From the NCBI GenBank assembly GCA_943736015.1, contig OX031070.1, positions 42,618,173 to 42,682,172 on the forward strand: a stretch of 64,000 nucleotides of DNA. Reading direction: 5' to 3'. Source of the DNA: Tridacna crocea. Taxonomy: Eukaryota > Mollusca > Bivalvia > Cardiida > Cardiidae. This document shows positions 1 through 64,000 of this stretch, piece after piece; the stretch's first letter is position 1; each line of letters begins with the position of its first letter. Under the pieces are notes generated by a model, which was not told the origin of the DNA, did no database searches, and saw only the letters and a program-made list of their open reading frames with translations. A program made the translations under genes and the position numbers.

Positions 1-64
1 TGGTGTGCGTGACTGGGAGCCTGTGAAAATGATGTGATAAGATCTGTACTGTTAAAAAAAATGA

Positions 65-253
65 GGAACATTGCAGCAAAAGAAGAAATAGCTCTTCCAG
101 TATCTTCCAGTTACCATCATTTTCTCCTTTTCCCACAAAGTTTTCTACCCATCACAAAACAAATTTCGAATTTTCAGTCACTTTTATTTTGTTGTTTGCA
201 AATGCTTTCAATTTGGACAAGCCTAAAATTTTGTCGTTTGGTATAGAGTTTAT
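65..253 (+). mobile_element. TTAApal MITE, 5'-truncated, degenerate core
   Basis: The right half is good (tctccttttcccacaaag, tgtttgcaaatgctttcaat, end gtttggtatagagttta). The left palindrome arm is scrambled. Confidence 0.7.
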
Positions 254-486
254 AAATTTTAGTATTATATTTCATTTGTCTATTTCTAGAAATGTTATGG
301 GTAAAGAAATGATGTAATTTAAGCTGGGGGGAAATTATTTCCCCATGAATGTTTTTCTCCTGCCGAAAATCTGAAACTTTTTTTTTAAAAATATTGGTTA
401 TCCGGTTAACTGACTTGAGATCACTAGTTTTAAAAGTGGCATTTGTTGACAAAATAATCAGAGGAAATATAATATATACATGTAAT

Positions 487-629
487 TTATTTCATCAGCT
501 TGTAGTTAATATGGGGAAATATTTGCCGAAAAAGGGAAAGGTCTGCCTTATGGCACTTGTTATTTTCTCATACCTTTCCCTTATTCGGCAAATATTTCCC
601 CCATATTAACCACAAGCTGATGAAATAAA
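487..629. repeat. long inverted repeat (hairpin), about 57-bp arms
   Basis: The arm starting tttatttcatcagcttgt at 487 is mirrored by acaagctgatgaaataaa ending at 629. About 30 bp of loop lies between. The internal arms carry gggaaatatttgccgaa and its complement. Confidence 0.85.
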
Positions 630-707
630 CTCCATATCTCACACACAAACTCATGTCAGATTCCAAATATCATACAATTTGTCACACTGTTGTTTTGCCT
701 TTTACAG

Positions 708-1163
708 ATATACATATCAGCAGGACACAGAGCCACTAAACATCTGTCAAGTGCCAAAATCTCAACCATGACTGAACTTTTTGAACAAAATTTACATTCT
801 GGTGACTTTCAAACAGGTTTATTAGTTGCCATTTCCAACTTAGCAAACAGCTTACGTATTGCACTGAGAGCTACCACTATAGCACATGCTTTGATAATAT
901 CAAATTTGGTTGTGGTATTCCTCTTCGGTGCCTTGTTCTTCTATTACCTGTTTATCAGAAAGCTGGAAACTAATGTTTGGGGTCAGGAGAAACCATTTCA
1001 ATTTCTAGAATGGATTGTTCAAGCAATAACAGGAATTTGGTTTATAAAAAGTATTTTAATAGCACTTACTGCAGTTTCAAATTCGAAAACCGGACTATTC
1101 TATTCTCTTATTGGGGCAGGTTTTGCTTTTATTTTGTGTTTTGTAATGTATGGTATTAGTTAA
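708..1163 (+). CDS. 3'-terminal coding exon of an unrecognised multi-pass membrane protein
   Basis: The exon opens after a good acceptor (ttgccttttacag, ending at 707) in phase 0 and runs 151 codons to a TAA. The peptide starts IYISAGHRATKHLSSAK. It has an amphipathic N-terminal part, then three hydrophobic stretches at about exon residues 55-82 (HALIISNLVVVFLFGALFFY), 101-121 (WIVQAITGIWFIKSILIAL) and 128-150 (the C-terminus). It is therefore an integral membrane protein ending almost inside its last helix. The gene starts upstream of the window and converges on OXSM. An AATAAA at 1434-1439 is a plausible polyadenylation signal. I do not recognise the family. Confidence 0.6.
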   Translation: MYISAGHRATKHLSSAKISTMTELFEQNLHSGDFQTGLLVAISNLANSLRIALRATTIAHALIISNLVVVFLFGALFFYYLFIRKLETNVWGQEKPFQFLEWIVQAITGIWFIKSILIALTAVSNSKTGLFYSLIGAGFAFILCFVMYGIS

Positions 1164-1197
1164 AGACTCTAACTTGGCTAGGGGAAACAGTATGTTA

Positions 1198-1330
1198 ACC
1201 CTTGAAGCCTGTCACAACTATAGTTGCAACTGTGGCCAAAGTAGATTGAGATCAGACTACATAAAACATGCAGCCTGACCTTTGCTCTACACTGTCTGAT
1301 TTACAGAAACCATCCAGACATAAGTAACCT
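1198..1330. repeat. dispersed GATCAGACT-type repeat fragment
   Basis: The segment gtagattgagatcagacta and the following tctacactgtctgattta resemble stretches at 51900-51970, 57765-58035 and 62720-62790, all built on gatcagact and tctgatc motifs. Class unknown. Confidence 0.4.
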
Positions 1331-1433
1331 TTGAATTGTGGTTGTTTGGGTCTTATTTCGAGTCTGAAAATGTAAGCTGAGTTTAAACCAGAGGCTTAAA
1401 GGTGGGTATTTAGATTTTTCACATCTTACCTTG

Positions 1434-1439
1434 AATAAA
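1434..1439 (+). promoter_or_regulatory. candidate polyadenylation signal AATAAA
   Basis: Canonical hexamer 271 bp downstream of the membrane-protein stop codon. Position is the only other support. Confidence 0.4.
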
Positions 1440-2719: not shown

Positions 2720-5700
2720 CTGATGTACAAAATTGTCCATTAATCCTTTCCCAAACAAACCCTGGTTTTTACGGGTCTGGAATAGTAGCCTTTTGAAAAC
2801 ATTGTGGGAAAAGGAGAAAATGCTGGTAACCAGCATTTTCTCCTTTTCCCACAATGTTTTCTACCCTATCATAGACAGAAATCATCTTTTCAGCAAGAGT
2901 TGAATTGCCGTCTGCAAATGCTTTCAATTTGGTCTAGTCCAAAAGTTTGTCGTTTGGGAAAGGGCTAATCCTTTAACTAACGTTTCCTCGTTCTAACCCT
3001 TTACTAAACAGTCGCTGGGTTTACAACACAGAGGAAAAAGCCTTCTGAAATCATTGTGGGAAAAGGAGAAATGCTGGTAACCAGCATTTTCTCCTTTATC
3101 CACATTGTTTTCTACCCTTCTTGAGTCAATTTCAACTTTTGAGTCATGTTTATTTTTTAAAATGCAAATATTTTTTATTTTGGACAAGTCTTAAAATTGT
3201 CGTTTGGTAAAGAGTTAAATCTTCACCAAAAATTCTTGACAACATAATGGATATAGTAGACTTGTCCAAATCCAAAGCGCGTTCCGAGGACAAATTAAAT
3301 GTGGCTCAATCCGTTGGATTTGTCGGTGCAGATAATAATTTGGGGAAAAAAATAGCAAATCTAATGCTGGTTACCAGTATTTTCTCCTTCTCCCAACAGC
3401 CCTCTCTGTGAAGAGTCCCTAAATTCTGGATTGTGTGGTAAAGGACTATGGCATCCTGTATAAGGTTGCCCATAAGTCATTGTTTTTAAAAAAAAAAAGA
3501 AAATTCTGGTAAACAGCATTTTCTCCTCTTCTCCCAATGTTATCATTCACAAGCCCAGCCAGGTAGCTCGTGGGTTAGTGTATCCGACATGTGACCTGGT
3601 GGATGTGGGTTTGATATTCAGTTGTGGCAAACTTTCTTTCATGTGATTTTGCACCTCTCATGTCTCGTGCATGTGAGAATAGTAGTCTGTGGCTTTAAGG
3701 AAGAAAGCCAGGGAAACACACGGGTGCGCATTCACTACCATGATTTGACCTAAGCAGTTAAAATGGGGGTTACACTCCAATACCGCTAGAGCTGTCACTG
3801 AATGTGACTTAACCCTTTCCCATACAAGCCCTTGTTTTTACATGTCTACAGTACAAGTCTTTTGAAAACACTGTGGGAAAAGGAGAAATTGCTCATAATG
3901 AGCAATTTCTCCTTTTCCCACAGTGTTTTCTACCCATTTGGAGAACTTTCTGCCATTTTTATCAAATTTGAAATTGTAGTCTGCAAACTCTGAGAGTTTA
4001 GAAGAGTCTAAAATTTCTCAAATTTGTCGTTTGGGAAAGGGTTAATACCCCCACCAGCACTCTGGGAGAAACAGGCAATTATTTGCTCACAGACAGACGA
4101 ACACACGATTGGACACATGGATGGACACAGAGACAGACGGACACACATGCAGACAGGCTGATTCCAGTATACCTCCGAAAACATTCATTTTGCAGGGGTA
4201 TAACTATGACATATATCTTTGTGATAGAGTCCATCAAAATGGCCAACAGCTAAATCATTGCAAAAGAGAGTTTTCATAGACTTGATAATGAAAATTCCTA
4301 CCTGAAGTCCATATCGCAGACTAATATGTCCGGCAGCCATATTGACGAGTGTCATTGTAATAAAATGTGGTGAAACTCGTTTATACCCTCTCTCTCGCAG
4401 AACATGTCCCACATCTGCTATATGCTGCATACCAACCATTCCCATACCTACCGCAACACCTGCAAGTACAAGTAAAGTGAGTTTGTCAGACAGGTGAATG
4501 ATACATTATTAAAGGTCTCCTCCTGAGTTGACGTAAGCTGACTTTTTACCACACAATTGCAAAATTTAACAACCATGATATAAAAGGCATTTGAAAACAT
4601 TGGGGGGAAAGGAAAAAATTCTGGTAATCAGCATTTTCTCCTTTTCCCACAATGTTTTCTACCCTTTCTTATACAAATTCTCATCACATGAGTATCACTT
4701 TATTTGTCGTCTGCAAATGCTTTGAATTTAGACAAGTCTCAAATTTTCTTGTTTGGTAATCATTTAACCCTTTCCCAAACAATCCCAGGTTTTTACGGGT
4801 CTGGAATAGCAGCCTTTTGAAAACATTGTGGAAAAAGGAGAAAATGCTGGTAACCAGCATTTTCTCCTTTTTCCACGATGTTTTCTACCCTATTACAGAC
4901 AGAAATCATCTTTTCAGCAAGAGTTGAATTGTTGTCTGCAAATGCTTTCAATTTGGTCTGGTCCAAAAGTTTGTCGTTTGGGAAAGGGTTAAGAGGCGAT
5001 GCCCCATGCTACCCAGTTACCAGGGCTTGGAATATACCACTATAAAACAGGGTGTTCAAATCTGGTTCTAGCCCTAAGCTTGATCAATTTCTTTCTTAGG
5101 ACTGATGACAGCCAACAGGGCACAATTCACCCCTATTACTAACACACCTTTCTTTTCAAACCACTGACTGCTTGTCTCACATGCATTTGGGATGAGGTGC
5201 AAAAGATTGCCAAAATGAAGAAAATATTGCTAAAAACAGCCTTTAACCCATTACCACACAATCCCTACTTTTGACGCCCCTGAGGAAGAAGCCTTTTGAA
5301 AACTCTGTGGGAAAAGGAGAAAATGCTGGTAACCAGCATTTTCTCCTTTTCCCACAGTGTTTTCTACACTTCCCAGAACAAATTTAAATTTTTCAGTCAC
5401 CTTTATTTTGTCGTCTGCAAATGCTTTGAATTTGGACCAGTCTAAAATTTTCTCGTGTGAAAAAGAGTTAACAACATAAAACAATTTAATCTTGAGCCAA
5501 GGGAGACAATCTTTCATTTAGCAGTGTCAACCTTATTGCACCTATTTGATTTGCCTCCCCTTCCTACTGGTGATAACTTTTTTTGTTTTGTTTTACAGAA
5601 GACAACATTTTGAAAATATTACTGTGAAAGTAGAAATGATTTTTACATGAAATTTTTCCATCTGTAATGATTTTTCAACATTTATATCTCTTGATTATCC

Positions 5701-8700
5701 GCATGCTATGGAAATGTTGAATTTACAACTAGTTTCAGTTTAACATGGAAAAAACCCTTTACCGCAAAATGCCAACTTTTAATGATCTTGAGAAAGAAGC
5801 CATTTTCCAACAAAATCTTCTGTCCCTACAAGGACAAATCACATCATTAAAACCTTTTTCCCACAATCCGCAGTTTTAACATTTTCGATAAAATAAAGCT
5901 TTCAAAAATATCATGGGAATACGAGAAAATGCTGATAAGCAGCATTTTCTCCTTTTCTCACAAAGTTTTCTATTCTATCAGCAACTTCGCGCCCCTCTAT
6001 TCCATATTCAAATTTCTTGTATGCAAACGTTTTGTTATCGGGAGAGGCTAAAATTTGTCATCTGGGAAAGGGTGATGCCACATTCAATTTGTCGTCTGCA
6101 AATGCTTTGAATCTAGATTTTCAACCATACATAAGGTTAACCTTTTCCCAAACAAGCCCTGGTTTTTGCGTGTCTGCAGTAAAAGTCTTTTGAAAACACT
6201 GTGGGAAAAGGAGAAATTGCTCATAATGAGCAATTTCTCCTTTTCCCACAGCGTTTTCTACCCTTTTTGAGAACTTTTGGCATTTTCTCCAAATCTAAAA
6301 TTGTCGGCTGCATACATGTACTCTTTTGGTTTGGAAGAGTCCAAAATCTGTCGTTTGGGAAAAGGTTAAACAATTACTGATAAAATGTAACATTGATCTA
6401 TATTTAGAATACTTATCAAGATGGTATTTATACTTTAGAGCCAACATAATCTGGTATGCTTGACAAAAAAAAGAGATAAATTTAGTATTTTCAAACTCTT
6501 TCCATCGAATATTCAAACACTTTCTCATAAAATATTTTGCAATGTATATCAAAGATGACACTACATATCATGCGCAAACTGATCTTGACCTACACTTTCA
6601 AAGTTATCTATCAAACAATAACTGGGTAAAACTATGCCAGACATTTCCACATTTAATTCTTTACCAAATGACAGAATTTTTAAATTCTGGAAAATACTGA
6701 ATTGAAAGCTTTTCCAGACAACAAATTCAATGTAAATTAATTAGTGATTTTTGTATTTGACAGGGTAGAAAACACTGTGGGAAAAGGAAAAAAAATGCTG
6801 TTTACCAGGAATGAATGCTGTCACAATACCTATCATTAATCCTCAGAAAGATGACATTGGATGCAAATTTTTTCCATCTACCAAAATGTTCCTACGTATA
6901 ATAATAATGTATAATTAACGAAGTGAACCTTATTTACAAGTAATTAATTTAGTTCAACTCTTTACCACACAATAACAACTTTTAACGACCCTGAAGAAAG
7001 CAAGCTTTTGAAAACATTGTAGGAAAAGGAGTAACCAGCACTTTCTCCTTTTCCTACAATGTTTAAAAAAAAAAAATGTCCATTGAGCTTCATTAAATCG
7101 TTAATTTGTCGTCTGCAAATGCTTTCAATCTGGGCTGATCTAAAGTTTGGTCATTTGGTTCAGAGATAACTCTTTACCAAACAATCCCTGGTTTTTACAA
7201 CCCTGAAATGGAGACCCTTTGAAAACATTGTGGGAAAAAGGAGAAAATGCTGGTAACCAGCATTTTCTCCTTTTCCCACAATGTTTTCTATCCTGCTGGA
7301 AACAAATTTCAATCTTCAAGTTATGTTTAATTTGTCGTCTGCAAATGCTTTTAATTTGGGCAAGTCTAAAATTTTGTTGTTTGGTAAAGAGTTTATTAGG
7401 ATGTCATCAATGTTTTCTATCCTGCTGGAATTAAATTTCAATCTTGAAGTTACAGTATGTTTGATTTGTTGTCTGCAAATGCTTTTAATTTGGGCAAGTC
7501 TAAAATTTTGTCGTCTGGTAAAGAGTTAAGTAGAATGTCATCAGCCAATCACAGCAGGGGGGTGAAAAAAAAAAGGGCATGAAACAGTCAAAAAGTTCAA
7601 TTGGAAATAAATGATACCATCCCCCTCCAAACACAAAAGAATAACTTTGAACTCGGCTGAACTTTTTTGAATACAGAACACTGAAGTCAATCAATCAATT
7701 TATCTTATTATACCTTTTTTACCTTACAATCCGGAGTTTTCATGATTCCAAGACAGAAGCCTTTTGAAAACAAAGTGTGAAAAGGAGAAAATGCTGGTAA
7801 CCAGCATTTTCTCCTTTTCACACATTGTTTTCTACTTTATCAAAGATAATCTTCTATCATTGGAACAAAATTTTAAATTTCGCCAGCTAATTCTTTCAAT
7901 TTGGTGAGCGTATATTTCTTACATGTGTGGTAAACAGTTAACCCTTTACCACACAAAAACATTTTAGACTTCTCCAAATTAAAAGCATTTGCAAGTGACA
8001 AAATAAAGGTAACTCAAAAATTGAAATTGTTTCCAGCAGGGTAGAAAACAGTGTGGGAAAAGGAGAAAATGCTGGCTACCAGCATTTTCTCCTTTTTCCA
8101 CAATGTTTTCAAAAGGCCTCTATCTCAGGGTCGTGAAAACCAGGGATTGTTTGGTAAAGGGTTAACAAGCAACTAACCACTCTGAATGAGAAACGCTTTT
8201 AAAAACATTGTGAAAAAAGAGAGAAAATGCTGGTAGCCAGCATTTTTTTCCTTTTTGCACAATGTTTTTCACCTTTTTGAAAGACAAAATCCTATCATCT
8301 GAGCTTAAAGAGTTATGAGTTACCCCTTTACCAAATGACAAAATTTTAGTCTGGTCCATATTGAAAGCACTTGCAGCCGACAAAATAAATGTAACTCAAA
8401 AATACATGTAGAACTTAATTTCCAGCAGGCTAGAAAACATAGAGGGAAAAGGAAAAAATGCTGATTACCAAAGGAAAAAAATGCTGATTACCAGTATTTT
8501 TTCCTTTCCCCACAATGTTTTCAAAGGGCTTCTTCCTTAGGGTTGTAAAAGGATTGTTTGGTAAAGGGTTAAACTGATGTTCCCATCCATGCATTTGCAT
8601 TAATTTCAACCCTTGTCTATGTGAAGCATTGCCTTGGGAAAAGAACGTTTACAGCACCTGCATAAAAGTATCGACCTAGGTCACCCTTCGTGTTATTGGT

Positions 8701-11700
8701 CAATTTTTTGTATATAAAAGGATTAGATTGATCGAATGGTGTTTTATGCCGCTTTCAACATTATTTCAATCCTATCACAGCAACAGCTCACATATTCATG
8801 TTTTCCTGGGTTTTACCAGCACTAGTCTAGGACTCAGAGGTGACTTGCCTAAGGATACTTTCACAAAGGACCTGGTGGAGCCAGTGCGGCTTGAGCCCAG
8901 GGCCTCCAGCTTATGAGTCCCACACTTTACCATCGAGCCATGCAGGACCCTGCATGTCAAAGGACCAGAATACCTCATGATTAAGTCAGTTGTTTGACGA
9001 AATGGACTTTATTGAAACCCTAATTGTGTATCATCTTCGCGAGCCAAGTTTACGATCACTACTTGGATCTTACCTTGGCTGTGTGAAGCCGATTTTGAGA
9101 TTCCTGCGATGCGCCCTCTATTGGATGCTGGTTATTACCCCCTTTTACATCATATTTCTAAAAACAAATGAAATATTGTTTTAAAAACCGCTTACGAATA
9201 CACATGAAGCGATAAGCAGACATCCATGTGGGATTCCATGTTTTACCTTCTATTCGAAAGGTAGCGACCTTGTTCTATTTTTATCAAAGATGAAATGCTA
9301 CGAGCGATTTCATTTCTTTGCAGTTAGAGCTGGCTGCATCCAATGAAAAAGCGTATCGGAGGAATGTAAAAATCAAGCTCGATCCGCCAAGGGCAGAGTA
9401 AGGTAGTGAATCGTCAGCCTTGGCTTGCAAAGATGATTGTATATTGGTTTGCTTTGTATCATGCATAAAGCCTCCTTTTACCAGAATGTGACTCATTTTT
9501 TTTTTAATGTATTTTTCTTATCAATCTTCAAAGTACAATTCTACTCCTCGATTCATTTGCTGATTAACCCTTCACTCCACAGATACTCATTTTGACGTAT
9601 CAACAACAGGCAGCTTTTGAAAACATTGTGGGAAAAGGAGAAATTGCTCTTAACGAGCAATTTCTCCTTTTCCCACAATGTTTTCCACTCAATCAGATAT
9701 TTGTATCCTCATTTGTCCATATTTTTGACGACATATCTTTATTTGGTGCTGAAATGGAAGAACCTCATATTGGTATATCAGGTAAAGGGTTAACTCATTA
9801 CCAAACGACAATATTTCAGGCTTTTCCAAATTGAAAGCACTTGCAGACGACAAAATAAAAGAGACTGGATATCTGAAATTTGTTTTGTGTAGAAAGCATT
9901 GTGGGAAAAGGAGAAACATTGTGGGAAAAGGAGAAAATGCTGATTACCAGCATTTTCTCCAATAATATTGGAAGACACCAAAAGAGTTAAACACATTAAT
10001 ATTGGAAGGCACCCATAGCTCAGTTAATAGAGTTGCACTGGTTTTAAAGGTCGCAGGTTTGAGTACTACTAGAGGCAGTTATCTCCTTTTGTTATAATAT
10101 TTTCTGGACTTTTTTGTTTCAATTGGAAAAAACTGTGTAAATTTGCTGAAGGGATAAACAGTGTATTATACAAACTGTTACCTGGTGCGAGGGAAAGAAA
10201 AATGTTTGCATTTAGTAAAGCGTTAAAACAAAGACAATATGTAACTAAATATTTACAAAAATAATACCATCTTGCACTGACGTCAATAGGTAAAATAAGA
10301 AAAAAATCAAACAACCTTAAACTCTTAACCACACAATCCCGACTTTTAAAGACCCTGTGAAGGAAACCTTTTGAAAACATCGTGGGAAAAGGAGAAAATG
10401 CTGCATAGCAGAAAGAAAAGGTTAACTCTTTAACACAGGACAAAATTTTAGACTGGTCCAAATTGAAAGCATTTGCAGACGACAAAATAAAGGTGACTGA
10501 AAAATTGAAATTTGATCGGAGAAGGGTAGAAAACACTGTGGGAAAAGGAGAAAATGCTGGTTACCAGCATTTTCTCTTTTTCCTACAGTGTTTTCAAAAG
10601 GCTTCTTTCTCAGGGGCATCAAAAGTAGGCATTGTGTGGTAATGGGTTAAAAAACTATTGTGAAAAATCAGAAACTGCTAATGACGATTTTTTAAAACCC
10701 TTTATCAAAAGACAAAATTTTAGACTGGTCCAAATTGAAGGCATGTGCAGACGACAAAATAAATGTGACTCAAAAATTGAAATTTGTTTATAGCAGGGAA
10801 GAAAACTTTGTGGGAAAAGAAGAAAATGCCGGTAACCAGTATTTTCTCCTTTTCCCAAAATGTTTTCAATCCCTTCAAGGTCAGAGAGAAATAGCCCAGT
10901 CAGTATAATTACTTTTACTCTACTTTTAAAAATGCTAACACAACATTGAAAAATAAAGATTAACTCCTCAGCTTTTCACCAAACAACGAAATTCTAGATT
11001 TTACCGCATTGAGAGTATCTGCAGACATCAAATTTAGCTTGGCTCATATTATGGTTTTTGTCTATGTATAGATAGAAAACATTGTGAGAAAGGTAGAAAT
11101 GCTAGTTAGCAGCATCTTCTCCTTTTTGCACAATGTTCTCAAAAGCCATCTCCATCAGGGTCATTAATTAACCCTTTACCAGAAAATTCCCAGTTTTTAA
11201 GAGCCTGAGATACAAGCCTTTTGAAAACATTGCAGCATTTTCTCCTTTTCCCACAATGTTTTCTACCCTTTCCAAATCAAATTTCAAATTTTGATACACA
11301 TTTATTTTGTCGTCTGCAAATGCTTTCAATTTGGAGAGGCCTAAGATTTGTTGTTTGGTAAAGAGTTAAAACTCAGGATTGTTCATCAGTTAGGGGTTAA
11401 CAGATGAGGAGACAAAATTAAGTATTTGTGGACAAAATAGCGAAATTTGTTTTGTCATGTCTACAACAAGGTTAAAAACATTGCCAGAAAGGAAGAAAAT
11501 GCTGGTGACCTGCATTCTCTCCTTTTGCTACAATATTTTCAAAAGCCCTCTTTCTACAGGTCACTAAAACGGTTGGAATTTTGAGGTAAAGGGATAGAAG
11601 ATTACCATTCCCCAGTATTTGAAAAGGATTTTACAATGTCACAATTGTGGAGTACAAATTCTATTGAGGTAATTGATTTTTTTATATCCATTTTTTGCAG

Positions 11701-14700
11701 CTTTTTTATTCACACTATTAAACTGAAATTTTAGAAACAAAACGTTTTTTAATTTTATAATTTACACACCATATCAGGACAAAAATTAAACTTGCTTGAT
11801 TTTAGCTATTTATTCTTTAGCTACAAGGCTTACCCAAGAAAAGATCGTGATATAATTAAATTCCTAAAAGCCATTGCAAAATTCTGGCACGAAATCTTAA
11901 AAATAGTTTTATCTTCTACCATTACCAAATAACAAAATGTATGATTGGTCCAAATTGAAAGAATTTGCAGATGACATCTAATATGTGTCTAAAATGATTG
12001 AATTTGTCTTTGATAGGGTAGGAAACTTTGTTGGAAAAGGAGAAAATGCTGTTTATCAGTATTTTCTCCTTTTCCTACAATGTTTTCAAAAGGCTTCTTC
12101 CTCAGGTTGTTAAAACTTGGGATTGTGTGATAAAGGGTTAATCCTTTACCACACAATGACGACTAAACGACCCTCAGAATTTGAGAAAGAAGCCTTTTGA
12201 AAACATTGTGGGAAAAAGAGAAAATGCTGGTTACTGGTATTTTTTGCTTTTCTCAAGGTTTTCTACTCTATCAAAGCAATATTGCACCATTTGAGCCACT
12301 TTGAAATTATCGTCTGCAAATGCTTTCAATTTGCATAGATCTAAAATTTTGCTGTGTGGTAACGGGTTAAGGAAACACCAGGGCACATAGCAATCAGCGC
12401 AGGCTAATCCGAGACAGCACTTTACGACTACATTTGATTATGTCCTACAGTAGACTTGTGCAAAACAGAAAGTTACTGAAGAATGGAAAGTGTTGTTTGG
12501 AAAAAGTCTGTGGGGACTGCTGCAGATTTTGAAATGCCCCTTTTTTGTACGTTTCAGGCCCATCAGCACTCAAAATCAGCCTTGCTCTTGAGCTAGGTTT
12601 GACAGCAATATGGTTTTGTGTATTTCTCTTTATATATATCTTTATATGCTATGCATAGTCTTATGCCTAGCACCTGGATGGGTGACCAGGGCCTGTATTC
12701 AGCAACCATTCTTGAGATCATTCTTAGTCTTATTCTCAAAGATTTTCTAAATTTGTAAGTAACACAACTTCTGATTGGCTAAACCAAATGGTTTAGCCAA
12801 TCAGAAGTTGTTTTACTTTCAAATACATGTATAGAAAATTCTGAAGAATAAGACAAAGAACGCTCTTAAGAATGGTTGGTAAATACCAGCCCTAGCCATT
12901 GCACGCAACATTTGGTGGCAGTGGTGGTATTACGACAACTGCTAGACGGAGTTGCCTTAACCCTTTACTCTATAGATACTCATTTCTACGCATTGCTTGT
13001 AGGAGCCTTTGGAAAAAATTGTGGCAAAAGGTGAAATTGCTCGTGACGAGCAATTTCACCTTTTGCCACAATGTTTTCTATGCTATCAAAAGGTGTCATA
13101 TACACATAAGAAACTGCTTCATCCTTGCTGTTATATAGGATCAAATAGAGATACCATAAAAATGCCTTATGGGGTAAAGGGTTAACCTCTTATGTTCCCC
13201 CTGTTTATTTGTGTATGAGTCTTTGCATCAACATTTCTCGAAGTGGAAAGTAAAGACATAGAGAGTGATTATATAGATACCGTAAGCGCCCAAAACCAGC
13301 CTTGCTGTTAAGCTACACATGATGTAGGTTTTACAGCGATGTTGACTGGTGTATTTTTCTAGTTAACCCATTTATACCAAACAACAATATTTTAGACTGA
13401 TCCAAATTGAAAGCATTTGCAGACGACAAAATAAAAAGTGACTAAAAATTTGAATTTTGTTTTTTGAAGGGTAGAAAACATTATGGGAAAAGGAGAAAAT
13501 GCTGGTCACCAGCATTTTCTCCTTTTCCCACAATGTTTTCTAAAGCCTTCTTTCTCAGGGGCGTCAAAAGTAGGGATTGTGTGGTAATGGGTTAAGTAGC
13601 TGCATTATGCTCAGTGTTTGAACAGGTGACCAGGCCATTGCACCTTACAGCATGTTTACTATACATTAGATGAAAAAAAAATCTAACTATTCAAAGTGGA
13701 AGGCATTTGCAGATTAGGAATCAAATAGGGCTAGAAAAAAAAAAGAACTTTCTTTTCTTTATTTCTTTACAACACAATCCCAACTTTTAATGACCCGAGG
13801 CAGATGGCTTTCAAAAACATTGTGGGAAGAGGAGAAAATGGCAATAAGCAGCATTTTTTCCTTTTCCCACAATGTTTTCTAGCCTATCAGGTCAAGTTTT
13901 GTCATTTGTGCCACCTTTAATTTATTGTCTGCAAATGCTTTCAATTTGGACCAGCCTAAATTGCTGTTGTTTGGTAAAGAATATAACTATATTTTCCAAA
14001 CAACAAAATTTAAGACACAATTGTTCCATTTGAAGCATTTGCAGACAAAAAAAATAAAAAAATATTTTTTTCCGGGAAGAAAATTGTAAAGAAATAAATG
14101 CTGGTTACCAGTATTTGCCCCCGTCACCAAAAAAATTTCCAAAGCCTCCTCGATCAGGACCACTTATACTCAGGACAATGTGGTAAAAGGTAGATTTCTA
14201 ATAAAACAGGAAGAAGGTAGTGAGGTACATGACGAGAATGCTGGTTAGGAGCATTCTCCTCCTAGTCTGTTTTCTACAGCCATTATCTTCAAGACTGGTA
14301 ACTCTTTACTCCATAGAACCTCATTTTGATGCATCAACAGCAGACAGTTTTTGAAAACATTGTGGAAAAAAGAGAAATTGCTCGTAATGAGCAATTTCTC
14401 CTTTTCCCACAATGTTTTCCACTCAATCAGATATTTGTATCCTCGTTTGTCCATATTTTTGACATCATATCTTTATTTGCTGCTGAAATGGAAGAGCCAC
14501 AAATTGGCATAACAGGTAAAGGGTTAAAAAAAGGACTGTTGCATGTTCTGTAAGGCCTAAAGAAAAAATATCTGTGATTAGGGTCTCCTGACCCTTAGCA
14601 CAATAAAATGCTGCCAGCCATAAACTTTTTACACGAAGATTGATAAAAAATCTCGCTGGTGTGATTTCCAAATATGGTCCATCTAAAAAGTTTCTGAAAG

Positions 14701-46600: not shown

Positions 46601-49600
46601 AGTGTCTCAAAAATCATCATATGTAGATCAGCTTGTGGCTCCAATGTTTTACTTGTGTATTATTGGGGACATAGTAAGCATTGAAGTCGACTGGGAAAAA
46701 GCGGAAGTCAAATGCATGTTTTGATATCAGTTAATTCTTTTCCACACGAGAAAATTTTAGACTGGTCCAAATTGAAAGCATTTGCAGATGACAAAATAAA
46801 GGTGACTAAGAAATAGAAATTTGTTCTGGGAAGGGTAGAAAACACTGTGAGAAAAGGAGAAAATGCTGGTTACCAGCATTTTCTCCTTTTCCCATAGTGT
46901 TTTCAAAAGGCTTCTTTCTTAGGGTGTCAAAAGTAGGGATTGTGTGGTAATGGGTTAATGACGTGTGCCACTTCCTGTATCATTGTGGCAGTAACAGGGC
47001 ATGACTGTTTTACAGACAGACATTTTGTTGTCATTGCTTCCATACATAAACTAGGCGAGAGAGAATTGTTGAAAATTATGGTAGGTACAAACTAGATCAT
47101 TTTCCATGCCAAGTGCATCTGTTTTGTCCCCACTCCCCACTTGGTCTATTGGCTTGGCTGTTTTTTGAAGGAAACCGCTTGAAAATAAGTTACTGTCATA
47201 GACCTTGCATTGTTGTTGTTGTCATTTGCTGATTTCAAAGAGCACATTGCAAATTATTTATAAAGTCTTTTATTTCATTACTTAAAGATTTACAAAGCAA
47301 CGAAAATTTAGATACAACCATATTAAAGCCATTAATTTTGTAGAAGACTGATTAGATGTGTCACAGATGGTGGGATTTGCCTATGAAACAATAGAAAACA
47401 TTGAGGGAAAAGGAGAAAATGCTGCTTATCAGCATTTATTTCTTATTGTTTTGTTTTTATAAGTTTTATTGGTGTAAGGCCGTAAAATCGGAATGTGTGG
47501 TAAAGCATGATATCCTCGACTTGAAAAATGTAAATTTTAGTTATAATAATCAAATTTTCTTTACAGGAGCTCTTGGCGGTACAACCACCTTCCTCAGGTG
47601 TGATCTTGCGATCACACTTGAGGAAGGCAGTTGTACCACTGAAAGCTCATGTAAACAAGTTTGATTATTATAATGAAAATGTGTGGTAAAGGATTAATTG
47701 TTTTGGTCTGGTTTTTTTTCATCAGACACTTCAGTGGACCTCACATATGTGGTGACGCCCTTGACATAGATCCCAAACATAACCACATACTGACTGGTTC
47801 CTGGTGTCCTGGAATTGCTTTACAGGTAAGTTAATGGAGTAACTAACACATGCTGACTGGTTCCTGGTGTCCTGGAATCACTTTACAGGTAGATTGTTGG
47901 AGTAAGTAACACACACTGACTGGTTCCTGATGTCCTTGAATCAATTTGCAGGTAAATTGTTGGAGTAAGTAACACATACTGACTGGTTTCTGGTGTCCTG
48001 GAATAGCTTTACAGGAAAGTTGTTAGAGTAAGTGACACATACTGACTGGTTCCTGGTGTCCTGGAATTGCTTTACAGGTAAGTTGTTGGAGTAAGTAACA
48101 CATGCTGTCTGGTCCCTGGTGTCCTAAAGTTGCTTTACAGGTAAGTTGTTAGAGTAAGTAACACATACTGACCTGTTCCTTCTGTCCTGGAATTGCTTTA
48201 CAGTTAAGTTGTTAGAGTAAGTAACACATACTGATTGGTTCCAGGTGTCCTGGAATTGCTTTACAGGTAAATTGTTAGTGTAAGTAACACATACTGACTG
48301 ATTCCTGGTGACCAGCATTTTCTCCTTTTCCCACAATGTTTTCAAAAGGCTTCTTCCTCAGGGGTGGTAAAAGTCGTCAATGTGTGGTAAAGGGTTAGAT
48401 GACCTGGAGGAAAAAACACTAAACGTATTGGAAGAGGAGAAAATGCTAGTTACCGGCATTTTCTCTTTTTGACAGTATGTTTCCAAAAGCCTTCTTTCTT
48501 AGCTTTGTGAAACAGGAATTGTTTGATAAAGGGACCATCAGTTAATTATTACTGTTTCAGCAAAAACATTATTTAACTTGGTACAATTATTCTGCTCAGC
48601 CCTGGGAGAGCTGTCGATACATATAGGACGGAAGAATAGGGGGGTTGCTGATTTTATATCTTGCTTGGCTTATACCTTTCCGAGGATTAATGATGCTATT
48701 GTGACAGGTTTCATCACTGCTGATCATTGTTTTGACCATGGTTATGTGGGAAAGCAGCCAGTGGCTTGGAAAGAATATTGTGAGGAGAAATAGTAAAAGA
48801 AACTCCAGTAAAGCATGGATAGGTGCACTGGCTGCTGCGATAAAACTAAAGAAAATGTTGAAAATGGCTTCAAGGAGTTAACCCATTATCACACAATCCC
48901 TACATTTGACGCCCCTGAAAAAGAAGCTTTTAGAAAACATTGTGGGAAAAGGAGAAAATGCTGGTAACCAGCATTTTCTCCTTTTCCCACAATGTTTTCT
49001 ACCCTTCACAAAACAAATTTCTAATTTCCCGGTGATCGTTGTCAAGGCATTTTTATTTTGTCGTCTGCAAATGCTTTCAATTTGGACCAGTCTAACATAT
49101 TGTCGTTTGGTAATGGGTTCAGGTGTTAAACACTACACTATCAATTAGTTTAATAATTATTCCAGATCTGGGATTTCAACTCCGCCCAGAAGATTAAGGA
49201 TGTCCCGCCAGAGCCCCTAAACAACACCATGGTATACTGCTGTCAGTGGTTGGGAAGCGAGAGCATCATTTGTGGTGGGCACAACCATAACATGGCCAGA
49301 ATTATTGACAGAGGAACACTGAACGTATGTACATTATTAGTTGTGCGGTCAGGTGGCAGGGCACTTGGAAACTTGTTCATGGCTGTGGTTAATCATGTCG
49401 CCCCAAGCCGAAGTGGCGACATGATTCACCACAGCCGTGAACAAGTTTCCAAGTCCCCTGCCACCTGACCGTACAACGAATTTATTATACTGCAAAGTTT
49501 TACCCTTTCAAAGGGCGTTAAGCGAAATCTTCCTGTTTTATAATTTCACAAATCGAGTATGCTGACGAAATAGAAATTCCCTTCTGTGTGTCCCAATTCA

Positions 49601-52600
49601 ATGAAAACTGACGTCACTGTAAACTGATGTCACTAAAACGTGCAGTTTGGTGAATAAATGTGCAGTCTGATGATCGATTGATGCCGCCATTTTGGATGAT
49701 GTATTGCACGTGTAGTGATGTTTACGGGGCACGCAAAAGGGAAACTGGTTTTACGTGTTTTTTGGCAGGGAACATGATATTATGTTCCCGCCATGTTAAC
49801 CAATCAGATCACGAGAAATTTCTTTGCAGTATAATAATATAGTTTTACCTATAACTCTTTACCAAACGACAAAATTGTGGACTAGTCCAAATTGAATGCA
49901 GCCGCAGACGACAAAATAATTGTGAATCAAACATTGAAATTCGATTTGGGAAGGGTAGAAAACATTGTGGGAAAAGTAGAAAATGTTGCTAACCACCATT
50001 TTCTCCTTTTCCCACAATGTTTTTTATTGGCTTCTTTCTCAGGGTCATTCAAAGTCGGGATTGTGTGGTAAAGGGTTAAAAAGACATTTTTACATCCAGA
50101 GAGTCATAAACGCTGTTAGAACTTGGTGGTATTATAATCTAGTCAGCTATGTAAACATAGATTAACCCATTACCACTCAATCCCTACTTTTGACGCCCCT
50201 AAGAAAGAAGCCTTTTGAAAACACTGTGTGGAAAAAGGAGAAAATGCTGGTAACCAGCATTTCTCCTTTTCCCACAGTATTTTCTACCTTTCCCAGAACA
50301 AATTTCAATTTTTCAGTCACCTTTATTTTGTCGTCTGCAAATGCTTTCAATTTGGACCAGTCTAAAATTTTCTTATGTGGTATAGAGTTAAAAATCAGTA
50401 CAAGGTGTATGGGGTAAATAAAGTGTAGGGATTTGTCTTTGATTTAACCCATTACCACACAGTCCCTACTTTTGACGCCCCTGAGGAAGAAGCCTTTTGA
50501 AAACACTTTGGGAAAAGGAGAAAATGCTGGTAACCAGCATTTTCTCCTTTTCCCACAGTGTTTTCTACCCTTCCCAGAACAAATTTCAAGTTTTCAGTCA
50601 TCTTTTTTTTGTCGTCTGCAAATGCTTTCAATTTGGACCAGTCTAGAATTTTCTTGTGTGGTAAAGAGTTAAAAATCGATATAAAGTGTATGGGGTAAAG
50701 AAACTGTTGGGATTTGTCTTTGATTTAAACTGAAAACTGTAGTTGTTGTGTCTAGGGCTAGCTGCAATAGAATGAAATGCATTTTCTGTCTACAGTAATC
50801 TGTGCAACCTTGCAAATATCAGGGACAACAGTTGGCAGAAAGATACATAGAGGATATTTGGTTTTTTTCGGTGAAAGACCAAAATTTGTTTCATCGAGTG
50901 GACACCATTGGTAATATTTTCACGAGTGGCACAGCGATGAGTGAAAATATTACTGATGGTGTTCACGAGATGAAATAAATTTCGATCTTTCATGGGAAAA
51001 AACAAATATTGTATTTATTCTATGCTTTTAACCCTTTCTGGGAGGAGCTTTATCAAAATTCAGTACAGTTCTTTTCCCTCATTCCCCGTGGCGTACCCCT
51101 CGCGCATAGCAACGTTACGTCAAGTGCGAGAAATGTAAGGTATATGACCTCATATTTCCCATCTGGTTGTTAGGCACGCGCAATTTACCTAGGCAACAAG
51201 AACATGAAAATCGGTATTTTCACTGGTGGTACCAGTGTAAGATTAAAAAATATTTTCACTGCTATTTCTCGATATCCTACAGGAAAGCATGAAATAAAAG
51301 ATAATTATATACCAGGACGAAAAAGAAACGCAGGGTACCATACAAGATATTGAACAAGCTTTGAGTCTCCATATGCAGGCAGTCACTACTTTTTTTCACT
51401 GAGGACGGGTACTGTCAATAAGAAGCCGTTTTCTCATTTCCTTTTGGCTACACTGAAATGAAATTTTGTCAAAATATTCAAAACTTGTCAGTAGTAAACA
51501 TAAAATCATAATTTAGAATTCTCAATCAAGTTATACACCTCTACCTTGAAAGGTTACCCTGCAATTCTTTTTCTTCCTGGTATAGTTTCATCAAATAAAG
51601 GAAAAAAAAAACAGTTAAAAAAATGGATGAAAACTTGTAAAGATGTTTGTTTAATCCTTTCCCACATGAAAAATATCAGAGTCCTCTGAATTTGAAACAT
51701 CTGCAGACAATAAATTAAGATGTGATACAAATAAGTGTAAGTTCTGTGAAAGATTGGACAACATTTGGGAAAAGGAGAAAATGCTGGTTACCAGTATTTT
51801 ATCCTGTTCCTTCCATGTTTTTAAAAGCCTTTCTGCTCAGGTTTGTTAAAAATAGGGTGGTAAAGGGTTAAAGTACCTATCACAATTACAGTTGCTGTTA
51901 CAGCGAGTTTAGATCAGGATCAGACTGCACAAAACAAATTGCATTCTGATCTTTGGTCAACACTCTCAGCTTTGCAGAGACATTTCGGACAATTAGTCAT
52001 ATTGAATTTTGCTGATAAGATGTTCAAAATGCTTTGAAGATTATGTATTCACAAAAGTAGTGGTGAAGAAACTAAGTGTACCATCTGCCACAATGTAACT
52101 GAAATCATGAATCAAAGTGTTGAGAATGCTGAAGTTGTATTTGTTAGGAAAGCCATTGTGTGGAATTAATAATTTGAAAGAAAAAGAGAAATATTATTCA
52201 AACATTGCTTTGAAAGTCAACAACGATGCATGATTTATGAATACTTATTTAGTGGAAGCGAGAATACTCTTGACAAAGTTAAGATTATTTGTGTATGGGT
52301 AGTCCCACTTTGATCATTAAGAGCCAGGAGTAATGCCCCTTGACAGTAGAATGAATGATGGATAGAGAGAGAAACCGTGTGAAAATATCAATAAAATTAA
52401 GTTTGCATTTGAAAACCATAATGTTAACATTTCCAACATTACAATCAGTTATTTTCATATATAAAAACATGTATTCATGCCTAATCAAATGGAGTAGTGC
52501 GCAATCATTGGATGAACAAGCCATGGGACAAACTAGTTTTGGAAGGAAAAAACCCAGGACTGAGTAACCGGTAGACAAATTTTGTATCATTGTGCCAACA

Positions 52601-54180: not shown

Positions 54181-54637
54181 ATAAATTCTTCACCAAACAA
54201 CAAAACTTTAGACTTGCCCAAGTTCAAAGCAATTGCAGACAAAAAATTGAATTTGCTCAAATGAAAGAGATTTGCTTTTGATAGGGTAGAAAACATTGTG
54301 GGAAAAAGAGACAATGCTGATCATTAGCAATATCTCCTTTTCTCATTATGTATTTTTGAATACTTCCTATTTTGGGTGGTTGAAACATTGGAATGTTAGG
54401 TAAAGGATTAACTCGTTACCAAACGACAAAATTTTAGACTTGTCCAAATTGAAAGCAGTTGCAGACAACAAATTAAACATTACTCAAAAATTGAAACTTG
54501 ACTTTAGAAGAGTAGAAAACATTGTGGGAAAAGGAGAAAATGCTGTTTACCAGCATTTTCTCCTTTTCCCACAATGTTTTCAAAAGGCTTCTTCCTCTGG
54601 GTCGTTAAATCCAGGAATTGTTTGGTAAAGGGTTAGA
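54181..54637 (-). mobile_element. two TTAApal MITEs (same orientation) sharing TTAA 54408-54411
   Basis: 54181-54411 is eroded (core gctgatcattagc). 54408-54637 is clean (core gctgtttaccagc; end gtttggtaaagggtta). Confidence 0.83.
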
Positions 54638-54682: not shown

Positions 54683-55002
54683 GTGACCAGCATTTTGTCC
54701 TTTTTCAGTATTATTTTTAGGATCCTTCCTCCTTTGGGTATTGAAAAATTGGGCAGTTTGATAAGGGGTTTAACCCTTTCCCAAACGACAAACTCTTGGA
54801 CTAGACCAAATTGAAAGCATTTGTAGATGACAATTCAACTCTTGCTGAAAAGATGATTTCTGTCTATGATAGCTAGGGGAGAAAACACTGTGGGAAAAGG
54901 AGAAAATGCTGGTTACCAGCATTTTCTCCTTTTCCCACAGTGTTTTCAAAGGGCTACTATTCCAGACCCGTAAAAACCAGGGATTGTTTGGGAAAGGGTT
55001 AA
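54683..55002 (-). mobile_element. TTAApal fragment joined to a type B copy at TTAA 54770
   Basis: 54683-54773 is a right-half remnant. 54770-55002 has ends ttaaccctttcccaaacgac and gtttgggaaagggttaa; core gctggttaccagc. Confidence 0.85.
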
Positions 55003-55423: not shown

Positions 55424-55652
55424 TTAACCCTTTACCCCATAAGGCATTTCTATGGTATCTCTAATTGACCTTAAATAACAGCAAGGATGAAGCCATTTCT
55501 TATGTGTATATGACACCTTTTGATAGCATAGAAAACATTGTGATAAAAGGTGAAATTGCTCGTCATGAGCAATTTCACCTTTTGCCACAATGTTTTCCAA
55601 AGGCTCCTACAAGCAATGCGTAGAAATGAGTATCTATGGACTAAAGGGTTAA
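55424..55652 (-). mobile_element. TTAApal MITE, type E
   Basis: Ends ttaaccctttaccccataag and atggactaaagggttaa; core gctcgtcatgagc inside ggtgaaat / atttcacc. Confidence 0.88.
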
Positions 55653-56183: not shown

Positions 56184-56412
56184 TTAACTCTTTACCACAC
56201 AATCCCTACTTTTGACGCCCCTGAGAAAGAAGCCTTTTGAAAACACTGTGGGAAAAGGAGAAAATGCTGGTTACCAGCATTTTCTCCTTTTCCCACAGTG
56301 TTTTCTACCCTTCCCAGAACAAATTTCAATTTTTTAGCCACCTTTATTTTGTCGTCTGCAAATGCTTTCAATTTGGACCATTCTAAAATTTTCTCGTGGG
56401 ATAAAGAGTTAA
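56184..56412 (+). mobile_element. TTAApal MITE, type A
   Basis: Ends ttaactctttaccacacaat and gtgggataaagagttaa; core gctggttaccagc. Confidence 0.9.
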
Positions 56413-56747: not shown

Positions 56748-57099
56748 TTCTTTTCGCACAATGTTTTCTACCTTTTTGGAGTCATGTATTAGCACTTGTG
56801 CCATTCAAGAGGTTGATGTATATGTTTTCATTTTCCAAACAAAGCTAGAATTTTGACAGCTGGAAAGGAGTTAACCCTTTACCCCAAAAGGCATTTCTAT
56901 GGTATCTCTAATTGACCATAAATAACAGCAAGGATGAAGCCGTTTCTTGTGTGTATATGACGCCTTTTGATAGCATAGAAAACCTTGTGACAAAAGGTGA
57001 AATTGCTCGTCGCGAGCAATTTCACCTTTTGCCACAATGTTTTCCAAAGGCTCCTACAAGCAGTGCGTAGAAATGAGCATCTATGGAGTAAAGGGTTAA
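56748..57099. mobile_element. TTAApal right half (+) and type E copy (-) sharing TTAA 56871
   Basis: 56748-56874 is a remnant (cgcacaatgttttctacc). 56871-57099 has core gctcgtcgcgagc and end atggagtaaagggttaa. Confidence 0.85.
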
Positions 57100-57252: not shown

Positions 57253-57481
57253 TTAACCCTTTCCCAAACGACAAACTTTTGGACTAGACCAAATTGAAAG
57301 CATTTGCAGATGACAATTCAACTCTTGCTGAAAAGATGATTTCTGTCTATGATAGGGTAGAAATCATTGTGGGAAAAGGAGAAAATGCTGGTTACCAGCA
57401 TTTTCTCCTTTTCCCACAATGTTTTCAAAAGGCTGCTATTCTAGACCCATAAAAACCAGGGATTGTTTGGGAAAGGGTTAA
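57253..57481 (-). mobile_element. TTAApal MITE, type B
   Basis: Ends ttaaccctttcccaaacgac and gtttgggaaagggttaa; perfect core gctggttaccagc. Confidence 0.92.
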
Positions 57482-58410: not shown

Positions 58411-58638
58411 TTAAACCTTTACCACAGGGTAAAATTTTAGGGCTATCCAAATTGAAAGCATTTGCAGTGACATTTTCATAGTGGCTCAAATGACGCAATT
58501 TTTCTTTGATAGGGCAGAAAACTTTGTGGGAAAAGGAGAAAATGCTGGTTACCAGCATTTTCTCCTTTTCCCACAATGTTTTCAAAAGGCCTCTTCCTAA
58601 GGGTTGTTTAAACGCGTCATTGTGTGATAAAGGGTTAA
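58411..58638 (-). mobile_element. TTAApal MITE, type A
   Basis: Ends ttaaacctttaccacaggg and gtgtgataaagggttaa; core gctggttaccagc. It sits right after a gcgagcaaaatag SINE-tail fragment. Confidence 0.88.
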
Positions 58639-62350: not shown

Positions 62351-62497
62351 ACTGAAATAGAACGTGTATGTAAATACTAATATCCTCTACTCTGTACAAC
62401 GTCAGATTAAATTCTACAGCGCCAACCTGTCGGTCGGGAAACTATGAGAAAGAACTAGAACAAGAGATTTGATAGTTGATACACGCTCACCTGGCTT

Positions 62498-62660
62498 TGT
62501 ATTACCAACCATTCTCAAAAACATTCTGAGTCTTATGATTCAAAATTTCTTTAATTCGAAAGTAGCACAACTTCTGATTGGCTAAACCATTCTGTTTTGC
62601 CAAAAAGGTTAAGCCAATTAGAAGTTGTGTAACTTTCAAATTTAGAAAACCTCGAAGAAA
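62498..62660. mobile_element. palindromic MITE (CATTCTTAAGAA family), copy 5, truncated
   Basis: attaccaaccattctcaaaa, centre ggctaaaccattctgttttg, right arm aagttgtgtaactttcaaat; the right end is missing. It lies about 150 bp upstream of the fibrinogen-related gene start. Confidence 0.75.
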
Positions 62661-62795
62661 ATAAAGGACATACTGAACCCTGAACCTACCGAATAAGTTA
62701 AAGCTTTTTTTTGCAAAAATATCAGACAGTGTAGATCCAAGATCAGACAGCACTTTGTGTGCTGTATGATCTTAATCTACAATTAATGTCCACTA

Positions 62796-63030
62796 GCGGT
62801 TAATGCGCCGTCTTTAAGGTTGATACCGAGCGAGGTAAAAGGGCGGTTAATGTGCCGTCTTTAAGGTTGATACCGAGCGAGGTAAAAGGGCGGTTAATGC
62901 GCCGTCGTTATGGTTGATACCGAGCCAGGTAAAAGGGCGGTTAATGTGCCGTCGTTATGGTTGATACCGAGCGAGGTAAAAGGGCGGTTAATGCGCCGCC
63001 GTTATGATTGATACCAAGGGAGGCAAAACA
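62796..63030 (+). repeat. 47-bp minisatellite, five units
   Basis: Unit gcggttaatgygccgtcktt followed by aaggttgataccgagcgagg and taaaagg. Successive units differ by few bases; the last is the most diverged. GC-rich against its surroundings. Confidence 0.9.
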
Positions 63031-63236
63031 TCATTATAGATCCATAAAATTTATTTTGTCTCACAACCTATTGAATCATAAGGTAGACGGTCCTAAGACA
63101 TGCACAACATTGACAAATAGCAAAAAAGTGAAGCACTGATATGAGTGGCGACAATAAAATAAACGGAAAAATGGTCAAACATTGTGGAACGTAGCCTTGG
63201 TTGCAGTCCTTTCATCTGATCCTACTCTATCAGGAC

Positions 63237-63530
63237 GTGCACGACGACGACGGGGATGATAACGACGACGACGAGGACGACGACAACGACGGGGATGATG
63301 ACGACGACGGTGATGACGAGGATGACGACGACGGTGATGGTGACGAGGACTACGACGACGGGGACGAAGACGACGACAACGACGGGGATGACGACGACGA
63401 CGGTGATGACGAGGATGACGACGACGGTGATGGTGACGAGGACTACGACGACAGAGACGAAGACGACGGCGGTGATGATGACGACGACAACGACGGTAAC
63501 GAGGACGATGATGACGACGAGCATCTTACG
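63237..63530 (+). repeat. GAC/GAT-rich minisatellite with 93-bp higher-order unit
   Basis: Trinucleotide-like (gacgacgacgaggacgac). A 93-bp block is duplicated (second copy starts about 63367). It happens to leave an Asp/Glu/Gly frame of about 110 codons open, but any frame of such DNA does. Confidence 0.85.
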
Positions 63531-63636
63531 TAGCATTCTTATGATTATTTTCATCATCATTATCATTGCTGTTGTTGTATATTGGCCATGATATACAAAT
63601 GATGAACATTTTAAACGCTGTCTAGTTGAGCTTGAT

Positions 63637-63864
63637 GTAACCCTTTCCCAAACAATCCCTGGTTTTTACGGGTCTGGAATAGTAGTCTTTTGAAAACATC
63701 GTGGGAAAAGGAGAAAATGCTGGTAACCAGCATTTTCTCTTTTTCCCACAATGTTTTTTATCCTATCATAGACAGAAATCTTCTTTTCAGCAAGAATTGA
63801 ATTATCGTCTGCAAATACTTTCAATTTGGTCTAGTCCAAAAGTTTGTCTTTTGGGAAAGGGGTA
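63637..63864 (+). mobile_element. TTAApal MITE, type B
   Basis: Ends gtaaccctttcccaaacaat and ttttgggaaaggggtaac; core gctggtaaccagc. The outer TTAA has decayed to GTAA/GTAAC. Confidence 0.88.
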
Positions 63865-64000
63865 ACAGAACTTGCAGACTTGAGTATAGAACAAACAGGT
63901 TAGGTAACGCCAAAAATGTTCGATAAGGAAATTAACTGTGGCATCAAAAAGGGGATATAAAATACGTTGAGCTAGATATCTCTTCGCCAAACGAAATAAT

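Follow-up and report, generated by a model that had tools for sequence, protein, structure and literature searches.

The 64,000-nucleotide stretch of the Tridacna crocea genome analysed here in full (the window; G000:C15:42618173-42682172, in a 1,048,827,098-base assembly of 31 contigs, of which contigs 1-18 measure 40-77 Mb each) is filled with copies of one miniature inverted-repeat transposable element (MITE), and the best-conserved part of this element is a central 67-nucleotide palindrome rather than its tips. The repeats are very probably a non-autonomous cut-and-paste MITE of piggyBac type, 229 bp long, with a duplicated TTAA target and CCC-type inverted tips, an assignment supported by empty insertion sites and coupled with a presumed piggyBac transposase. 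Sequence comparison gives about an even chance that the palindrome is a cis-acting site for mobilisation, most likely a dyad-symmetric transposase-binding site. The explanation as a whole, a piggyBac-type MITE with the palindrome as a transposase site, is slightly favoured on balance.

Comparing the window against itself reveals one dominant interspersed repeat in both orientations. A profile built on 15 hand-picked copies (229 positions, cut-off E <= 1e-3) returns 218 raw rows, with the palindrome scoring on both strands. Once this second-strand echo is removed, 117 copies or fragments are left, 68 on the plus and 49 on the minus strand, and 70 of the 117 are near full length (at least 201 of 229 profile positions). 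They cover 21,690 of 64,000 bases (33.9%) at a mean spacing of 547 bp per match, and the reversed window, used as a control, gives 0 profile matches. The word CCCTTTACCAAAC, with up to 2 mismatches, occurs 111 times in the window against 2.46 expected. These counts bear out the initial annotation, which described a palindromic TTAA MITE saturating the window with copies in both orientations. Its element length of about 228 bp agrees with the 229-bp consensus, both TTAAs counted, while its palindrome of 64 nt needs correcting to 67 nt (33 pairs around one base, consensus positions 56-122). Two of its statements went too far: placing copies in every intron and intergenic gap is too sweeping given copy-free gaps as large as 4,499 and 2,997 bp, and the derivation of almost all short open reading frames (ORFs) from the repeat finds no support, as 26 of 67 ATG ORFs of 60-130 amino acids lie more than half within the MITE against 23.8 expected from rotated positions.

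A chance repeat or a local satellite is ruled out by the empty reversed control together with copies in 19 of 20 sampled genomic stretches. A MITE is taken here to be an element under about 600 bp that lacks coding capacity, has terminal inverted repeats (TIRs) and a target duplication, and occurs in many copies of uniform length. The repeat is 229 bp long and non-coding, carries TIRs, duplicates its target and reaches a high copy number, and 66 of 84 TIR-bounded elements measure 220-239 bp.

The target site is TTAA. Among the element ends to which profile matches extend in the window, TTAA makes up 56 of at least 80 on the five-prime side and 53 of at least 70 on the three-prime side, counted from the 12 commonest tetranucleotides per end. 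The outer flanking 4-mer is shared in 0 of 48 copies, so no duplication extends beyond TTAA, and 4 of 15 abutting copy pairs share exactly one TTAA. In an empty-site test, the flanks of 141 copies were joined around one tetranucleotide and searched in 355 kb of sequence, where 11 of the 141 had a non-MITE relative spanning the junction. Unfilled relatives carry a single in-register TTAA at 5 of these 11 informative junctions (3/3, 3/5, 3/5, 3/6 and 2/3 relatives), which supports the proposed target duplication; at the remaining 6, TTAA is in register in no relative. The insertion sites of the copies at 31283-31510 and 36046-36278 are relatives of apparently one palindromic host repeat (TGGTGTTTAACACCA), and hint at preferred insertion targets inside other palindromes.

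CCC tips are typical of piggyBac-type elements. The repeat combines a duplicated TTAA target with tips of the form CCC or CYC, and the earlier suggestion that CCC-starting ends are piggyBac-like is strengthened by piggyBac elements of the same genome, which have TTAACCC tips. The family, with its tips TTAACCCTTTACCA, might instead belong to Kolobok or Sola3, other superfamilies that target TTAA; Sola3 likewise duplicates it. Kolobok does so too, and its ends, as described in the available part of the source, bear an AG or RR terminal motif (PMC6004289). The MITE tips start CCC or CTC and lack that AG/RR motif, and TTAACCC opens the elements of five piggyBac families found in this genome, which makes this other affiliation very improbable.

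Divergence from the consensus over 161 copies is 9.6% in the palindrome, 14-18% in the tips and 21-23% in the two body parts. Clustering of 170 copies on sequence outside the palindrome yields five subfamilies of at least 4 copies (82, 11, 9, 7 and 5), the other 56 copies falling into smaller clusters. When the five subfamily consensuses are compared with one another, divergence is 0-15% in the palindrome, 17-61% in the bodies and 3-41% in the tips; the subfamily cl12 and the main subfamily are identical at all 67 palindrome bases with bodies 26% apart. Within cl12 (n=11), palindrome, tips and body decay alike (0.020, 0.016 and 0.025 at sites outside CpG, TpG and CpA), as they do within cl2 (n=5; 0.038, 0.029 and 0.038 at such sites). 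Because all parts decay alike within these two subfamilies, the sequences suggest that constraint on the palindrome acted in active copies, before insertion. Neither this conservation nor the pairing of changes described below figures in the initial annotation.

The palindrome also accompanies the tips. In the sequence set without the duplicate loci L036, L037 and L042, all 84 of 84 elements recognised by this family's two tips alone, with the palindrome unused, contain it, against 0 in a reversed control. If every TTAA element with inverted tips of 12 nt is accepted, the number rises in stringency-free fashion to no more than 38, of which 33 have the palindrome; the five without it mean little because the control gives 23. 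Two 370-bp TTAA-bounded elements (L006:7451-7820 and L014:2141-2510) lack the palindrome and resemble each other in their 12-nt inverted tips (GTAGTAGACCC / GTAGTGGACCC); they may represent a further TTAA MITE family. As to palindromes that do not belong to the family, 7 of the 257 examined have no MITE arm in the profile match; one is the piggyBac locus L035, described below, and the other six look like decayed copies or chance. Viral contigs contain no exact match to the 31-base palindrome core.

Where the palindrome changes, its two arms tend to change together. The consensuses of four subfamilies pair at 33/33 positions and the fifth at 32/33, and 7 of 8 pairs changed relative to the main subfamily are altered on both sides, complementarily. 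These are pairs 8, 26 and 31 in cl11 and pairs 14, 21, 26 and 31 in cl2; cl12 has no changed pair, and cl14 has the sole one-sided change at a paired position among the five. Five distinct pairs are changed on both sides, four of them by two-transversion swaps (G-C to C-G or A-T to T-A), and the small cluster cl1 adds two paired changes. Counts per copy include related copies repeatedly, and the subfamily comparison is the safer measure. Among 44 window copies (43 distinct), hand-chosen from the 117 matches for a gap-free palindrome, 39 cells carry a change in each arm, compared with 9.1 after shuffling and 2-9 when the arms are slid as a control; counted as pairs with a both-sided change, the signal is weaker (8 vs 4.4). 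Over 161 copies there are 103 complementary and 42 other double changes; 26.4 complementary ones are expected, and slid controls contain 54-72 double changes of all kinds together.

Arm-to-arm copying is able to correct inverted repeats, and the paired changes would also fit a palindrome without function, its arms kept alike by template switching or gene conversion in a few source copies. With pairs 8, 26 and 31 left out, the 170 copies still hold 57 complementary doubles against 15.1 expected and 33 others against 18.6, partly through the cl2 pairs 14 and 21. Copying between arms preserves symmetry and leaves the rate of substitution unaffected, whereas from one subfamily to another the palindrome is far better preserved than the body. 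Ongoing correction in dead copies was sought in the main subfamily and not seen, because complementary and other doubles without pair 8 are equal (8 and 8, with 2.9 and 2.9 expected). This origin of the symmetry is unlikely.

The same paired changes would preserve a DNA hairpin. Folded as DNA, all three palindrome types form one uninterrupted 32-pair hairpin (-37 to -38 kcal/mol, z -14 to -17), and the palindrome could matter through this structure: extruded as a cruciform or as a hairpin, as might happen on the lagging strand, it would aid excision, re-insertion or copying of the element. Under such selection, the sequence should drift through paired changes, yet the 67 bases of cl12 and the main subfamily are identical over bodies 26% apart; moreover, one of the two copies of an inverted repeat at L035 ("unit 2") lacks most of one arm. 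Such a structural role is rather unlikely. The same hairpin could presumably form in RNA, so that the palindrome, transcribed from introns, might act as double-stranded RNA or as a small-RNA precursor, much as the human mir-548 genes derive from the MITE Made1 according to the available text (PMC1784062). It is not evident why every mobile lineage should require an RNA role, and this reading is highly unlikely.

The initial annotation proposed a genome search for a piggyBac source. A search with the piggyBac family PF13843 (DDE_Tnp_1_7), in which 116 of 196 candidates were scored, lists at least 118 matches, 26 of which cover 345 or more of the 349 positions and contain no stop. piggyBac genes with TTAACCC ends exist in this genome; none with the MITE's own CCCTTTACCA ends appears among the 21 of 118 listed loci that were read, mostly over 3.5 kb each with some far ends outside. 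Among the families read, shared boundaries or paired tips fix five piggyBac end types, TTAACCCTTTATATACGAG, TTAACCCTTTCAGTGCGGG, TTAACCCTAGTCATGCGGG, TTAACCCATTTATGCCT and TTAACCCTCTAGAGCCCGG, all of which share TTAACCC with the MITE and two of which share TTAACCCTTT.

One candidate parent was rejected for now. A piggyBac-like gene with a 492-amino-acid main frame and apparently an upstream exon (L031/L036/L037/L042 and L046-L047) occurs in five near-identical copies on five contigs, with a 70% relative at L043. MITE copies lie between its exons and adjoin it, and those upstream of the main exon and beside it at first resembled element ends. The gene is, however, embedded in a larger unit common to its near-identical copies; upstream, this unit stops sharply (L047:2740; five copies, 100%, five contigs), and not at a TTAA end.

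L035 (G000:C8:24820197-24823670) is a second carrier of the palindrome. At this piggyBac locus, an open frame for a transposase runs over about 500 amino acids (473 from the first ATG; 591 by the profile-search count) and is set between inverted repeats, unit 2, of about 250-310 bp that are 82-86% alike over aligned parts. Each repeat holds a MITE-related palindrome, the one with the reduced arm included. Compared with cl11, this palindrome has additional changes, some of them paired and some unpaired. When the genome was searched with L035 as query (40 of 145 candidates scored), several copies emerged; five of them have an internal deletion, to judge by their coordinates, and most end at the TTAACCCTCTAGAGCCC tip. 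Unit 2 alone, at 71-80% identity, occurs at dispersed sites and close to contig ends, at several places in the first 50 kb of C1, C2, C3 and C8. Palindrome echoes in these copies are 85-93% alike against mostly 73-77% for whole copies, a comparison in which short local alignments favour high identity. L035 is a possible parent of the MITE, but its palindrome-bearing inverted repeats are copies of a separate repeat, and its own tip is TTAACCCTCTAGAGCCCGG. The unit 2 palindrome may come from nested insertion or from exchange. It is also conceivable, though doubtful, that the palindrome is a portable selfish module that passes between unrelated mobile elements and makes its carriers amplify; the carriers would be TTAA MITEs with differing bodies, the roughly 300-bp unit 2, and L035-type piggyBac elements with two inverted unit 2 copies. 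Such a module would be comparable to the highly conserved domains common to different short interspersed elements.

The favoured explanation, a transposase site, would work as follows. The element would insert at TTAA and duplicate it, moved by a borrowed piggyBac transposase. A dimer of this transposase, or its C-terminal domains, would dock on the palindrome and bring the two tips together. Both half-sites would meet the same protein surface, and active lineages would keep a change only when both halves change; the site would thereby outlast body and tips. A short element, a strong site and a borrowed transposase might together account for the very high copy number. Known systems offer precedents. 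In the human piggyBac MITE MER85, an internal 16-bp palindrome is essential for binding of the PGBD3 transposase and the TIR alone is insufficient, according to the part of the report available (PMC3459987), and the piggyBat and piggyBac transposases bind palindromes as dimers through their C-terminal domains, as described in the accessible text (PMC11707139).

Several observations weigh against this explanation. Within three subfamilies, the palindrome is less diverged than the rest (main, 0.047 vs 0.105 and 0.113; cl14, 0.070 vs 0.095 and 0.135; cl11, 0.006 vs 0.045 and 0.061). Mixed sub-lineages in the larger groups would probably explain this difference, though dead palindromes may instead decay more slowly. 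Changes are mostly one-sided in cl5 (n=3; ten one-sided, one paired and one unmatched), and cl23 (n=3) and cl22 (n=2) have two and one one-sided changes, respectively. The tip-only search is blind to elements with quite other tips, CCCTTTACCA ends are found at 0 of the 21 loci read, and a related palindrome sits in unit 2, whose ends differ and are non-CCC. Finally, the piggyBac palindromes described in the available texts measure 14-19 bp against 67 bp here (PMC11707139, PMC3459987).

The profile was also applied to 20 arbitrarily placed 10-kb stretches across the genome; of the 176 copies or fragments detected there, 87 are near full length. Coverage averages 14.9% (range 0 to 34.9%), and one stretch has no copy. 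Since the window reaches 33.9%, it is richer than the genome average and near the top of this sample. A bootstrap over the stretches puts the genome total at 0.67-1.20 million for copies or fragments and at 0.32-0.60 million for near-full copies alone; a sequence-similarity genome search (3,284 candidates listed, 40 scored) contributes nothing to this count. The family was called very successful and non-autonomous from the window alone, and success on this scale is confirmed genome-wide: one MITE family amounts to about a million copies or fragments and about a seventh of a 1-Gb genome. The copy number of human Alu lies in a comparable range, and the MITE here is a DNA transposon.

The family also affects annotation, since MITE translations are a source of false gene models in public predictions. 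Among public predicted proteins, 5,631 of 6,160 candidates match a MITE-derived ORF at E <= 0.01 (120 listed and 12 sequences inspected), with source species unspecified and possibly including this animal. One protein cluster among these matches, P0002, is labelled Pfam PF01776, a ribosomal protein family. The dead copies, in turn, document a natural mutagenesis, and symmetric changes that compensate each other can be read from them directly. MER85 and piggyBat raise the question of which cis requirements a piggyBac MITE has beyond its tips, and this record makes it testable.

Part of the 117 window matches are given below by window position and strand; each rests on the profile match unless stated.

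2740..2968, plus: MITE copy, cl12 type (profile 1-229)
2794..2862, plus: 67-bp palindrome of copy 2740..2968, plus one flanking base per side
2994..3218, plus: MITE copy
3809..4045, plus: MITE copy, cl11, TTGCTC palindrome; 3/3 unfilled relatives with one TTAA
4541..4759, plus: MITE copy
4764..4992, plus: MITE copy, query for the genome search
5243..5471, plus: MITE copy
6137..6369, plus: MITE copy, cl11 (profile, subfamily clustering)
6956..7168, plus: MITE copy, abuts 7167..7393
7167..7393, plus: MITE copy
7718..7941, plus: MITE copy, TTAA 7938-7941 common to it and 7938..8165
7938..8165, minus: MITE copy
9564..9792, plus: MITE copy, divergent body, TTGCTC palindrome
10422..10650, minus: MITE copy
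11168..11369, plus: MITE copy
11919..12141, minus: MITE copy, TTAA 12138-12141 common to it and 12138..12370
12138..12370, plus: MITE copy
12957..13090, plus: MITE copy, cl2 type (profile 1-134 only); 92-94% complementary to 55424-55652 and 56865-57099
13363..13595, minus: MITE copy
14299..14527, plus: MITE copy, divergent body, TTGCTC palindrome
14751..14968, plus: MITE copy
18478..18706, plus: MITE copy
18751..18977, plus: MITE copy; 3/6 unfilled relatives with TTAA
22528..22755, plus: MITE copy
24255..24482, plus: MITE copy, cl11 (profile, subfamily clustering)
25480..25708, plus: MITE copy
28779..29011, plus: MITE copy
29512..29740, plus: MITE copy
31283..31509, plus: MITE copy; 3/5 unfilled relatives with TTAA
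31959..32186, minus: MITE copy, cl11 (profile, subfamily clustering)
32520..32747, plus: MITE copy
32749..32979, minus: MITE copy
34113..34341, minus: MITE copy
36047..36278, minus: MITE copy; 3/5 unfilled relatives with TTAA
36514..36744, minus: MITE copy, TTAA 36741-36744 common to it and 36741..36966
36741..36966, minus: MITE copy
38125..38355, minus: MITE copy
41454..41682, minus: MITE copy
42606..42835, plus: MITE copy
43968..44196, plus: MITE copy
45497..45715, plus: MITE copy, cl11 (profile, subfamily clustering)
46731..46958, minus: MITE copy
48878..49119, plus: MITE copy
50162..50391, plus: MITE copy
50444..50672, plus: MITE copy
54187..54411, minus: MITE copy, TTAA 54408-54411 common to it and 54408..54635
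54408..54635, minus: MITE copy
54770..55002, minus: MITE copy
55425..55652, minus: MITE copy, subfamily cl2, very different body, conserved palindrome (profile, subfamily clustering)
56184..56412, plus: MITE copy
57253..57481, minus: MITE copy
58411..58638, minus: MITE copy
63638..63865, plus: MITE copy

The window also contains a beta-ketoacyl synthase exon (1922-2730), a ligand-gated channel-like frame of 398 amino acids (27251-28447) and a fibrinogen-domain frame (60998-62350). Tandem arrays lie at 47784-48310, 45949-46549 and 59638-60324, with units of 63, 157 and 203 bp, respectively, and an aspartate-codon-rich GAC/GAT repeat array (63243-63520) is close to a 47-bp tandem array (62796-63028).

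MITEs, piggyBac MITEs and transposase-binding palindromes are already known kinds; what seems new here is that, in a family this large, one long palindrome at the centre outlasts both body and tips and changes by paired substitutions. Made1 belongs to another superfamily and its palindrome spans the whole element, unlike that of the MITE here. It is similar in being a hairpin-giving MITE, as the available text on mir-548 describes (PMC1784062). The literature, as far as its texts were available, yielded no description of a MITE with such a palindrome, Repbase and Dfam lying outside the comparison. In bivalve genomes, MITEs take a considerable share and piggyBac elements occur in all molluscs analysed; in the accessible part of that survey, the MITEs are not further classified and no family with this core is described (PMC10294476).

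The T2-MITE / Xmix group of Xenopus resembles the family in targeting TTAA and in being a long-lived MITE group with many subfamilies, and differs in its AGGRR terminal motif and Kolobok transposases, according to the text available (PMC6004289). The MER85/PGBD3 system shares a short, internally deleted piggyBac element with a TTAA target, a short TIR and an internal palindrome. MER85, as given in the sections at hand, is 140 bp long, has 889 copies and carries a 16-bp imperfect palindrome near one end, whereas the MITE here is 229 bp long, has an estimated million copies or fragments and carries a near-perfect central palindrome of 67 bp (PMC3459987). The piggyBat and piggyBac elements likewise target TTAA and have end palindromes, which in piggyBat lie as far as about 120 bp inside the tip. 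In the available text, these palindromes measure 14 bp in piggyBat (three, at the left end) and 19 bp in piggyBac, in contrast to the one of 67 bp in the T. crocea MITE (PMC11707139).

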